NCBI GenBank assembly: GCA_022361275.1
Contig: JAKSBE010000454.1
Location: 1-32,008, forward strand
Direction: 5' to 3'
Origin: Kiloniellales bacterium
Lineage (GTDB): Bacteria; Pseudomonadota; Alphaproteobacteria; Kiloniellales; JAKSBE01
DNA: 32,008 nt
Below are positions 7,574 to 30,196 of the stretch, one piece after another. Position 1 is the first letter of the stretch, and each line of letters begins with the position of its first letter. Position numbers and translations under genes: made by a program. The notes beneath the pieces were generated by a model. It ran no database searches and had not been told where the DNA came from. It worked only from the letters and a program-made list of their open reading frames with translations.

Positions 7574-7611
7574 GGGACCACGGGCCGCCGAAGGGCGGAA
7601 CGTCGGCCTCG

Positions 7612-7701
7612 GTCGCAACCGCTCCCTTCGCTGGCATGATCCAGATCAGGTTCTACGGGTCTGTTCTCAGCCCGCCGGCGGCGGACACCCCGAGTTGCGA
7701 C
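7612..7701 (-). promoter_or_regulatory. TPP riboswitch (THI element)
   Basis: The reverse strand carries the conserved thi-box core: ACTCGGGGTG near the 5' side, CTGAGA at 7670-7665, then ACCCGTAGAACCTGATC, CTGGATCATGCCAGCGAAGGGA split across 7650-7623. The closing P1 helix is perfect: GTCGCAAC (7701-7694) pairs with GTTGCGAC (7619-7612). Thiamine pyrophosphate binding to this RNA lowers expression of thiamine genes. It sits upstream of tenA in the same orientation, which fits TenA's salvage role. Confidence 0.95.
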
Positions 7702-7706
7702 ATCGA

Positions 7707-23188: not shown

Positions 23189-23221
23189 GGGTGGCGCGAT
23201 CGCCTTCAAGGGAGCCCTGGC

Positions 23222-23262
23222 GCGGTATGAAGTGAAGCCGAACCGGCTTCACTTCATACCGC
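23222..23262. repeat. Perfect 19-bp palindrome upstream of trpB
   Basis: Arms 23222-23240 and 23244-23262 are exactly complementary with a 3-base loop (AAC). It is 33 bases upstream of the trpB start. It lacks a T-run on either side, so it is not a typical terminator. It belongs to a dense set of palindromes filling the trpF-trpB spacer (23189-23511), which holds no gene I can support. Confidence 0.9.
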
Positions 23263-23276
23263 TCTCATTGAACGTA

Positions 23277-23328
23277 TAGAGCCCGATTCAGACATGAGGT
23301 CGTTTCGATCTCATGTCATCGTGCTCTA
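23277..23328. repeat. Long imperfect hairpin framed by TAGAGC/GCTCTA
   Basis: Outer arms TAGAGC (23277-23282) and GCTCTA (23323-23328) enclose inner arms GACATGAG (23291-23298) and CTCATGTC (23310-23317) with a further TCG/CGA pair around a TTT loop. The right half, 23310-23330, matches 30176-30196 beside the rpsA stop at 20 of 21 bases, which marks it as a dispersed repeat. Confidence 0.8.
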
Positions 23329-23352
23329 GGGCGCGGACTCTGCCCGATTGCG

Positions 23353-23399
23353 CCGGTGCCCGCAATGCCTTCGGCACCGGCCGATCCGGGCGAAGGCAT
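23353..23399. repeat. Two overlapping, mutually exclusive hairpins
   Basis: CCGGTGCC (23353-23360) pairs with GGCACCGG (23373-23380). Alternatively ATGCCTTCG (23365-23373) pairs with CGAAGGCAT (23391-23399). The two structures share bases and cannot form together. This resembles an attenuator but could be part of a repeat element. It lies between trpF and trpB; no leader peptide with Trp codons is apparent. Confidence 0.6.
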
Positions 23400-23472
23400 C
23401 GCAGACACTGGCGCGTCGCCGGTTAATACCAAGGAGCGTTGATCATGACTCATTTGATCTATTCCATAGAGT

Positions 23473-23514
23473 TAGAGAAGCTTATCCGCGTTCGAACGAA
23501 CGCGGGCTGCTCTA
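23473..23514. repeat. Hairpin abutting the trpF stop codon
   Basis: Outer arms TAGAGAAGC (23473-23481) and GCTGCTCTA (23506-23514), with one mismatch, enclose perfect 9-bp arms CCGCGTTCG and CGAACGCGG (23486-23494 and 23497-23505). The last three bases are the trpF stop codon on the reverse strand. The TAGAG...CTCTA frame resembles the hairpin at 23277-23328. It could end or stabilise the trpF transcript. Confidence 0.75.
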
Positions 23515-24159
23515 GCCGGCCGCAAGGGCCTGCAGGAATGCGGCGATCTTCTCCGGGCTCTTCCGGCCCGGCTTGTCCTCGACGCCCGAGGAGACGTCGA
23601 CCGCGGGCGCGCGGGTGACGCGCAGCGCCTCGGCAAGGTTGCCGGCGTCCAGGCCGCCCGAGAGAAACCAGGGCTTGGGCCAGTCCCGCCCGGCCAGCAA
23701 GGTCCAGTCGAAGCTCAGCGCGTTGCCGCCCGGCAGGGCGCCCTCCATGTCCTTGGGCGGCTTGGCGTCGAAGAGCAGGCGGTCGGCCACCGGCAGGTAG
23801 TCGCCGGCGCGGCCGAGGTCCTCGGCGCCGGCCACCGGGATCGCCTTCATCACCGGCCGGCCGAAACGGCGGCGCACCTCGGCGACCCGGGCCGGGCTCT
23901 CCTTGCCGTGGAGCTGCAGCAGGTCGAAGTCGTAGGCCTTGAGGATCGCGCCCAGGGCCTCGTCGTCGGCGTCCACCGTGACCGCGACCTTGCCCAGGCC
24001 GGGCGGCAGGTCGGCGGCGATCCGGGCCGCGCCCTCGGGGGTCGCCGCCCTCGGGCTGGGCGGATAGAAGACGAAGCCGACGAAGGCCGCGCCGCCCGCG
24101 ACGGCCGCCCGCGCGGCCTCGACGGTGCGGATCCCGCAGATCTTCGCTTCGATCCGCAT
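23512..24159 (-). CDS. trpF: Phosphoribosylanthranilate isomerase
   Basis: TrpF converts N-(5'-phosphoribosyl)anthranilate to its ribulose form in tryptophan synthesis. The 215-residue TIM barrel has the catalytic-cysteine motif KICGIRT (Cys8), LLQLHGKE, LFDAKPP, LSGGLDAGN, and VDVSSGVEDKPGRKSPEKI at the C-terminal phosphate site; all are standard. AGGAGGG lies four bases before the ATG at 24159, and the start overlaps the stop of the upstream membrane gene (TGATG). Its stop codon lies in the arm of a hairpin. It precedes trpB in the common trpF-trpB-trpA order but is separated by about 320 bases. Confidence 0.96.
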   Translation of the reverse strand: MRIEAKICGIRTVEAARAAVAGGAAFVGFVFYPPSPRAATPEGAARIAADLPPGLGKVAVTVDADDEALGAILKAYDFDLLQLHGKESPARVAEVRRRFGRPVMKAIPVAGAEDLGRAGDYLPVADRLLFDAKPPKDMEGALPGGNALSFDWTLLAGRDWPKPWFLSGGLDAGNLAEALRVTRAPAVDVSSGVEDKPGRKSPEKIAAFLQALAAG

Positions 24160-25001: not shown

Positions 25002-25129
25002 AGACGCTCCGTCCCCTCCCGAACCGGGCTCCGATCCCGTCGGCCGTCATCTGTAGCAGAGGTGGGCCCTGCTGCCACGCCAATCAATCGCCCGGAGGCG
25101 CCGGGCGGACCGCAAGGTCGAGTCTCGAT

Positions 25130-29003: not shown

Positions 29004-29053
29004 CTAGATCAAACGCCGCTCAATTGGAATCACTTGAGCCGCGTTTGATCTAG
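29004..29053. repeat. 20-bp inverted repeat with one mismatch
   Basis: Arms 29004-29023 and 29034-29053 (CTAGATCAAACGC and its complement at the outer ends) pair with a single mismatch around a 10-base loop. It lies just before the cyclodeaminase start, in the 186-base gene-free spacer 28993-29178, and overlaps the next palindrome by three bases. Confidence 0.85.
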
Positions 29054-29105
29054 TGTCCCGATTCTGAAATTCGTGAGAGCGAGTTGCAGAATCAAAGGGA
29101 CACTA
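29051..29105. repeat. Inverted repeat TAGTGTCCC/GGGACACTA
   Basis: TAGTGTCCC (29051-29059) pairs with GGGACACTA (29097-29105), and GATTCTG (29060-29066) with CAGAATC (29087-29093), with a 3-base bulge. Both inner arms contain the GANTC methylation site. The stretch CCCGATTCTGA resembles CCCGATTCAGA in the trpF-trpB hairpin at 23283. Confidence 0.8.
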
Positions 29106-29141
29106 ACTCGTTGAATCTCGTGTGATTCAGCTTCCAAATCT

Positions 29142-29160
29142 CGGCACATGAAATGTGCCG
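29142..29160. repeat. 8-bp hairpin after lapA
   Basis: CGGCACAT (29142-29149) and ATGTGCCG (29153-29160) pair around a 3-base loop, 19 bases beyond the lapA stop. No T-run follows closely on the reverse strand. It could protect the end of the lapA message or act as a weak terminator. Confidence 0.65.
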
Positions 29161-29178
29161 GACTTTGAAACCATCACA

Positions 29179-29532
29179 CTAGTTGCCGTTGGCGACCATC
29201 GGCAGCCGCCCGGCGGCGGGCTTGTCCTCGGGCGTGCGCCGCTCCAGTTCGGCGACCTGCCGTTCCAGTCGGGTGGCGTTGCGCCTGGCATCGCGGGCCT
29301 GCCGCCGGCTGGCGCCGCCCGAGATCCACATGACGCAGCCGCCGGCCAGGAAACCGATCAGGAAGCTCAAGAGGGCCATGAGAAAGAGCGGCAGCTCCAG
29401 GCTGATCTCGAAAGGCCAGAGGTCGAGCAGGACGCGCTGCCGGTTGGACAGCGCGAAGGACACCACCACGATCGCCAGGATCACGCCGATGAAGGTGACC
29501 AAGATACGTGGGAACCAAGCCAGGAACTTCAC
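29179..29532 (-). CDS. lapA: LapA domain (DUF1049) inner-membrane protein
   Basis: LapA-domain proteins are small inner-membrane proteins; in Escherichia coli LapA acts with LapB in lipopolysaccharide assembly. This 117-residue protein has two transmembrane helices (about residues 6-28 and 47-68) separated by the typical NRQRVLLDLWPFEISLELPLF segment (split here as NRQRV and WPFEISLELPLF). A charged, Arg/Glu-rich coiled tail follows at ~73-100. The GTG start at 29532 has GAGAGG upstream. It sits directly after ihfB, the usual alphaproteobacterial order rpsA-ihfB-lapA. The downstream 186 bases contain only palindromes before the next gene. Confidence 0.88.
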   Translation of the reverse strand: MKFLAWFPRILVTFIGVILAIVVVSFALSNRQRVLLDLWPFEISLELPLFLMALLSFLIGFLAGGCVMWISGGASRRQARDARRNATRLERQVAELERRTPEDKPAAGRLPMVANGN

Positions 29533-30175: not shown

Positions 30176-30196
30176 CTCATGACATCGTGCTCTAGG
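30176..30196. repeat. Partial copy of the trpF-trpB repeat at the rpsA stop
   Basis: Twenty of 21 bases match 23310-23330, the right half of the hairpin in the trpF-trpB spacer. Here the left half is missing. The GCTCTAG end contributes the rpsA stop codon (30192-30194), just as a similar end contributes the trpF stop. Confidence 0.75.

Follow-up and report, generated by a model that had tools for sequence, protein, structure and literature searches.

We analysed a 32,008-nt stretch of DNA (the window; contig C312) from a Kiloniellales genome, G000 (5.95 Mb, 615 contigs), and compared it with two genomes of the same genus, G001 and G002. The genes under discussion lie on the minus strand, and profile searches confirmed the identities of TrpB, TrpF, ribosomal protein S1, and a LapA-domain protein. 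A preliminary description had placed four hairpins in the trpF-trpB spacer, two of them framed by TAGAG...CTCTA. All four are present: A (23222-23262, with a perfect stem of 19 bp), B (23277-23328), C, and D (23473-23514). The framing was borne out for B, as TAGAGC...GCTCTA, and for D, as TAGAG...CTCTA; A and B proved to be a single element, AB, and C is not a repeat. TAGAG-N10..40-CTCTA, a pattern that misses B because the gap there exceeds 40, has two overlapping matches in the window, both in D, against 0.06 expected by chance. The features are listed below, without a strand where none was assigned.

23216-23329: element AB, two hairpins, A and B; right CTAG at 23326-23329, left end decayed to CTGG at 23217-23220.
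23331-23414: hairpin C, ancestral spacer, not dispersed; found in the G001 and G002 spacers; fold z −6.29.
23337-23365, minus strand: promoter-like motif TTGCGG-N17-CAGAGT upstream of trpB, within hairpin C.
23427-23458, plus strand: single end of a long-inverted-repeat element (TACCAAGGAGCGTTGATCATGACTCATTTGA...), with many dispersed copies.
23450-23459: TCATTTGATC, shared without change by the long-inverted-repeat end of the window and some D copies; probable site of fusion.
23452-23515: truncated D, positions 44-107 of 107, 97% identical to the consensus; right hairpin 23473-23514, right CTAG 23512-23515.
23512-23514, minus strand: trpF stop codon TAG, within the end of D.
29004-29053: lone left hairpin of D, with CTAG at both ends.
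29050-29182: element E, 133 nt from CTAG to CTAG; the right CTAG contains the stop codon of the LapA-domain gene.
30176-30195: half-unit of B, equal to the right end of AB (20/21 identity); CTAG at 30192-30195 supplies the rpsA stop codon.

Hairpin A alone seemed unique as a query; a longer query showed it to be part of AB. A query spanning both hairpins gave joint matches of about 115 nt at many sites in G001, and 23 distinct copies, including that of the window, share common ends at extrapolated lengths of 113 to 118 nt. The end tetranucleotide is CTAG in 16/23 copies on the left and 20/23 on the right, and the terminal inverted repeats read CTAGAGC-GGGATGA and CTAGAGC-ACGATGA. In G000, the B query returned 35 rows at E ≤ 10, many of which pair up as opposite strands of a single palindrome, and 18 distinct places at E ≤ 0.02, the window included. 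The pattern TAGAGC-N15..45-GCTCTA occurs at 73 places and its reversed control, which lacks the rare TAG and is unmatched in composition, at 72, so that the bare count is no evidence; those of the 73 places that were listed sort into recognisable families. A B-like sequence is also found in G028, which belongs to another family of the order, and the B type is thus more widespread than full D. The half-unit reported beside the rpsA stop was confirmed at 95% identity over 21 nt (30176-30196). It is missing from the aligned stretches of G001 and G002, where rpsA appears, by eye, to end in TGA. G001 carries an AB copy near window position 25100 that is absent from G000.

Alignment of loci defined full D as a 107-bp unit of two hairpins, CTAGATCAAACTGCGTTTAATTGG...TTTGATCTA, a linker, and TAGAGCAGC...GCTGCTCTAG. 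A first D query gave at least 41 rows (40 of 133 first-look candidates scored), and we collected 84 distinct full copies in the three genomes (47 in G000, 20 in G001, and 17 in G002); these counts are lower bounds, covering fetched loci whose flanks reach 60 nt or more. CTAG forms the left end of 72/84 copies and the right end of 71/84, and the inverted-repeat relation between the two ends is only partial (CTAGATCAAACTGCG and CTAGAGCAGCCCGCG). The stems are well kept, with 3159/3275 pair cells still paired (G-T counted) and 10/39 pairs occurring with two Watson-Crick types. Among 61 genomes of the order, 4 matched D: the three of the genus and G054, from another family, with a 46-nt partial match. 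When the GTDB collection was scanned for exact matches to a 26-nt stretch of D, 22 stretches were hit, all in the G002 record; G001, whose fetched loci contain the 26-nt stretch, gave no match and so lay outside the scan, as G000 may have done too. Several D copies in G001 and G002 lie tens of bases from contig ends (e.g., G001:C68:7 and G002:C357:1). The assemblies thus seem to break there, and copy numbers would be underestimated.

The elements are frequently stacked. In the window, the lone left hairpin of D and E share the CTAG at 29050-29053, forming a stack at 29004-29182. E itself has five other near-complete copies among the fetched loci (L160, L242, L026, L243, and L060). A single shared CTAG joins D to B, A, or E ends, or AB to E, at a further seven loci (L129, L056, L024, L049, L207, L212, and L157). 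The preliminary description had proposed a dispersed, mosaic intergenic repeat family, and the many further copies found by whole-genome search, together with the shared CTAGs, support that proposal. In the trpF-trpB spacer, D lacks its own left half and one end of the long-inverted-repeat element stands in its place. Among the fetched places of this TACCAAGGAGCGTTGATCATGACTCATTTGA repeat (L067-L095), besides the window, 12 have paired inverted ends and 11 a single one; the paired elements measure about 75-280 nt, and the repeat also occurs in other families of the order. A scan of 30 loci for an autonomous element behind the TACCAAGG repeat found none with a second end spaced as in an IS. The half-element and D were probably fused by recombination at TCATTTGATC, to judge from the identity of this stretch in both. 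Hairpin C is of another kind: it is shared with the spacers of both congeners, and no further copies turned up among 40 of 229 candidates scored. The trpF-trpB spacer is a patchwork of elements plus the ancestral hairpin C.

Orthologous sites in the congeners allowed filled and empty states to be compared. In the trpF-trpB spacer, G001 lacks AB and reads AAGCCTCAGGGCGCGG, where the filled site reads GAGCCCTGG-AB-CTAGGGCGCGG; this empty site is CTCAGG rather than CTAG, which counts against CTAG targeting. In G002, AB is present but its B is shortened, and the TACCAAGG long-inverted-repeat end and D are missing from both congeners. The trpF stop falls at the same codon without D, as TAG in G002 and TGA in G001. 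At C219, G000 reads GACGACTAC-TAG-D-CTAG, and both relatives read GACGACTATTAG, with TTAG at the same codon; at C338, G000 has GGC-TAG-D, G001 has GGCTAG (a CTAG without D), and G002 ends in TGA. C108 has TGA at the same codon in both relatives. For the LapA-domain gene, which carries E in G000, G001 has CTAG at the same stop without E, and G002 has TAA; the G000 spacer has lost other bases as well. Thus, at five stop-codon sites and in ten comparisons, all read by eye, the stop codon holds the same position with and without the element, so that protein length is unchanged by it.

At four of these five empty sites, one relative or both carry (C/T)TAG, with the caveat that the relatives carry TTAG at two sites and elsewhere TGA or TAA. 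TAG was found in 5/10 comparisons, which is not above a baseline of 38/104 taken from the ORFs on which the codon model was trained (open-ended ORFs scored as TAA, homologues of the three genomes pooled). Orthologous empty sites show one (C/T)TAG where a filled site is bounded by CTAG on either side, in keeping with target duplication; TA would be the duplicated target. Other sites are harder to read. At C219 site 1, which holds a partial D, G001 has none and G002 retains GGCTCTAGGCC, which may be a remnant. No D is seen at C219 site 3, C338 D1, or C108 D1 (G002 only for the last), where the flanks are too changed for the target to be read.

CTAG is itself rare here: 227 kb contain 113 occurrences where base composition predicts 652, an approximately 6-fold depletion, and 43 of the 113 lie at element-like ends. 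The preliminary description had pointed to two cases in which the end of an element supplies the stop codon of its neighbour; both are correct (trpF TAG at 23512-23514 and rpsA TAG at 30192-30194, minus strand), and a tally of positions relative to stop codons showed that the use of TAG stops by D goes far beyond them. Among 168 D flanks, classified with a codon model trained on 104 ORFs, a gene clearly reads into the element in 61, with 93 unclear, 11 reading away, and 3 too short. In 44 of the 61, the gene stops at the element's own TAG (left, 29/39; right, 15/22), a proportion higher than one-third (P = 7e-10) and than the 16/35 found at non-element CTAGs (P = 0.009). Counted by locus, TAG-stop placement was seen for 41/84 D loci and 15/70 non-element CTAGs (P = 3e-4). 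The in-frame excess over the CTAG background may reflect targeting, or partly selection against harmful insertions.

As a candidate mobiliser, we considered IS630. A search for PF13358 in the three genomes gave 7 rows at 7 loci, those in G000 being fragments, and paired TA-anchored inverted ends surround the gene at only 2 of the 7. L256 in G001 is 1.06 kb long, has TAGAGCG ends (CTAGAGCGTCGCGCTTTTAATC and CTAGAGCGCCACGCCTTAATTGGG) flanked by CTAG, and holds its ORF in two parts; L258 in G002 is 1.18 kb long, with TAGTGT ends (CTAGTGTTCTGATTCCGAAGTT and CTAGTGTCCTGATCGCGAAGTT) likewise flanked by CTAG. The transposases of both match NF033545 (IS630). IS630 reportedly prefers the TA in CTAG, according to the title of a 1991 paper by Tenzen and Ohtsubo. 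In G000, the partial IS630 gene at L259 (66% identical over 98 aa) ends in CGACGCTCTAG, and a partial D follows directly.

We then scored the similarity of element ends to those of the insertion sequences, using as controls 1680 genomic 26-mers taken after TAG, unfiltered and with element copies included; a control that excluded sequences starting like element ends looked stronger than this one, and the comparisons were picked after the ends had been seen. For the left end of E and L258, 2 and 1 of the 1680 controls were as good, as were 0 to 3 of 1000 shuffles, which retain the first three bases; for the right end, 5 and 24 controls were. The right end of D matched L256 better than all except 4 and 6 controls, or 11 and 21 of 1000 shuffles, and its left end only weakly (296 and 116 controls as good). 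Comparisons of AB with L256 left 61 to 296 controls as good, the right end of AB being weak (61). The left end of AB with that of L255, another IS630 gene, left 1 of 3000, the L255 terminus being a putative one since its contig ends within the gene. Altogether, these resemblances would make the link to IS630 well supported for E and moderately so for D and AB.

Short length, many copies, sharp common ends, and unrelated flanks at 84 D and 23 AB loci characterize the elements as MITEs, their non-coding nature being judged from size alone. We therefore read AB, D, and E as CTAG-bounded, non-autonomous MITEs of 107-133 bp that were most likely moved in trans by an IS630-family transposase inserting at the TA of CTAG, a reading to which we assign a probability of roughly two in three. 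AB and D each consist of two back-to-back palindromes. An IS630-family (Tc1/mariner-type) enzyme would cut at the element ends and insert the element at the TA of a CTAG. Insertions would often fall exactly on stop codons because CTAG is rare in this GC-rich genome and about a fifth of element-free CTAGs are a clear in-frame TAG stop. CTAG reads alike on both strands and bounds the inserted element on each side, so genes to the left and right would keep a TAG stop. Each insertion would also create two new CTAG targets, leading to stacking, shared CTAGs, and mosaic spacers. It is the resemblance of ends that points to IS630 enzymes as the probable movers.

CTAG or YTAG at the insertion points would equally suit MITEs of an IS5-type element with a 4-bp CTAG/YTAR duplication. 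We consider this origin unlikely, as both insertion sequences found with similar CTAG-bounded ends belong to IS630 by NF033545, within a search for transposases that was made with PF13358. A REP/BIME likeness was put forward in the preliminary description. On such a model, a Y1 (RAYT) transposase would copy the repeats by way of single-stranded hairpins, and CTAG would serve as its tag. The elements do share REP-like traits, being palindromic, high in copy number, frequent at gene 3' ends, and stacked, as far as such repeats are characterized in the cited account (PMC3733652). Mechanistically, however, the likeness fails: these are 107-133-bp units with CTAG at both ends, a single YTAG in the empty sites of relatives, and some IS630-like termini, as opposed to the one-sided GTAG or CGTC tags of REP/BIME. 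The only PF01797 (Y1_Tnp) gene found in G000, at L096, lies in a 3.25-kb locus devoid of CTAG and is accompanied by GGGGTCAGAGTCATTTTT-type repeats. A RAYT origin, tested in G000, was thus unsupported, the sole Y1 gene lacking element flanks, and we regard it as improbable.

Selection by the host could also be invoked, if hairpins at gene 3' ends served as terminators or mRNA stabilisers at stops and were spread by recombination. The strong RNA folds (AB, z −9.3; consensus D, z −10.3), the preservation of stems through two-sided changes, and the location right after stops all fit this explanation. Nonetheless, orthologous sites in the congeners lack the element, the spacer has no U-run terminator, and full D was seen only in the genus, which together make this the least probable of the alternatives and a very improbable one.

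RIME elements are palindromic. By their description, the RIME of rhizobia are like the elements studied here in that they are intergenic, mosaic, and found in Alphaproteobacteria. Closest in kind is RUP of pneumococcus, an IS630-Spn1-type MITE described as 107 bp long, high in copy number, intergenic, inserted at TA, carrying IS630-like ends, and clustering with other repeats (PMC2229807, PMC10969869, PMC3049150). RUP and our elements, likened by description, agree in the length of D, copy number, intergenic position, TA, and IS630-like ends, and differ in the host, in the two separate palindromes, in CTAG instead of plain TA, and in the marked placement at stop codons. BOX of pneumococcus is reported to encode a gene's stop codon in 36 cases; the supply of stop codons is common to both, whereas BOX is modular (boxA, boxB, and boxC) with a proposed link to ISSpn2 (PMC3049150). 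With RUP so close in kind and BOX already supplying stop codons, the kind of element is a known one, and the CTAG/stop-codon rule is the distinctive part.

Correia/NEMIS repeats of Neisseria, stem-loop repeats of 107 and 155 bp counted among TA-ended MITEs (PMC2229807), are similar by description as small stem-loop elements, and the account cited describes no preference for CTAG or stop codons. REP/BIME and CGTC-tagged repeats resemble ours in being palindromic, dispersed, and often downstream of genes, as portrayed in PMC3733652; they carry a one-sided GTAG or CGTC tag on a 20-40-bp palindrome, with a RAYT link for GTAG, unlike the two-sided CTAG here. According to the same account, no dedicated transposase goes with the CGTC repeats of this class (PMC3733652). 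On these descriptions, the elements appear to resemble RUP more than REP/BIME. Among the matches listed, we found no published CTAG/stop-codon MITE or Kiloniellales repeat, which is no proof of absence, and a literature text search for the terminal sequences gave unrelated titles among the 15 of 210 matches listed.

A broader and more tentative proposal, which we hold to be possible and somewhat short of even odds, is that several IS630-type MITE families use TAG stops as a safe harbour. The palindromic CTAG is depleted, the stop would be restored on both strands, protein length would be kept, and the new targets would let 3'-end regions be built serially, one such insertion having become a two-hairpin leader at the predicted trpB start. 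On the main reading, a single rule, CTAG targeting, would account for both the stacked palindromes and the shared stop codons. That reading would supply a candidate mobilising enzyme for one set of palindromic repeats in Alphaproteobacteria, predict where such elements lie in other GC-rich genomes, and draw attention to the possibility that transposons provide stop codons there.

At trpB, neither a U-run terminator nor a standard sigma-70 promoter was found in the spacer. The promoter-like motif within hairpin C has a −10-like hexamer that ends 7 nt from the CTAG of AB. A generalized form, TTGCNN-N17-CANNNT, occurs upstream of trpB at 22/24 loci, which represent several families of the order, and in 0.6% of 480-nt windows drawn at random from the genus; the pattern was devised after inspection of these spacers, and the match at L118 is doubtful, being located far upstream. 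Thirty loci were examined, of which 6 had no trpB hit, and the 24 include G000 and the two congeners. If the motif is taken as a promoter, trpB transcription would start at about the AB insertion point, and AB would now form a two-hairpin leader of trpB; D would lie upstream of the predicted promoter, at the trpF stop. The joint RNA fold of A and B (z −9.27) and that of consensus D (z −10.3) are strong. An effect of the elements on transcript ends or on trpB expression, as suggested in the preliminary description, is possible. An Rfam scan of the window gave nothing matching the trpF-trpB hairpins and a sole match elsewhere, a TPP riboswitch at 7604-7702 on the minus strand.
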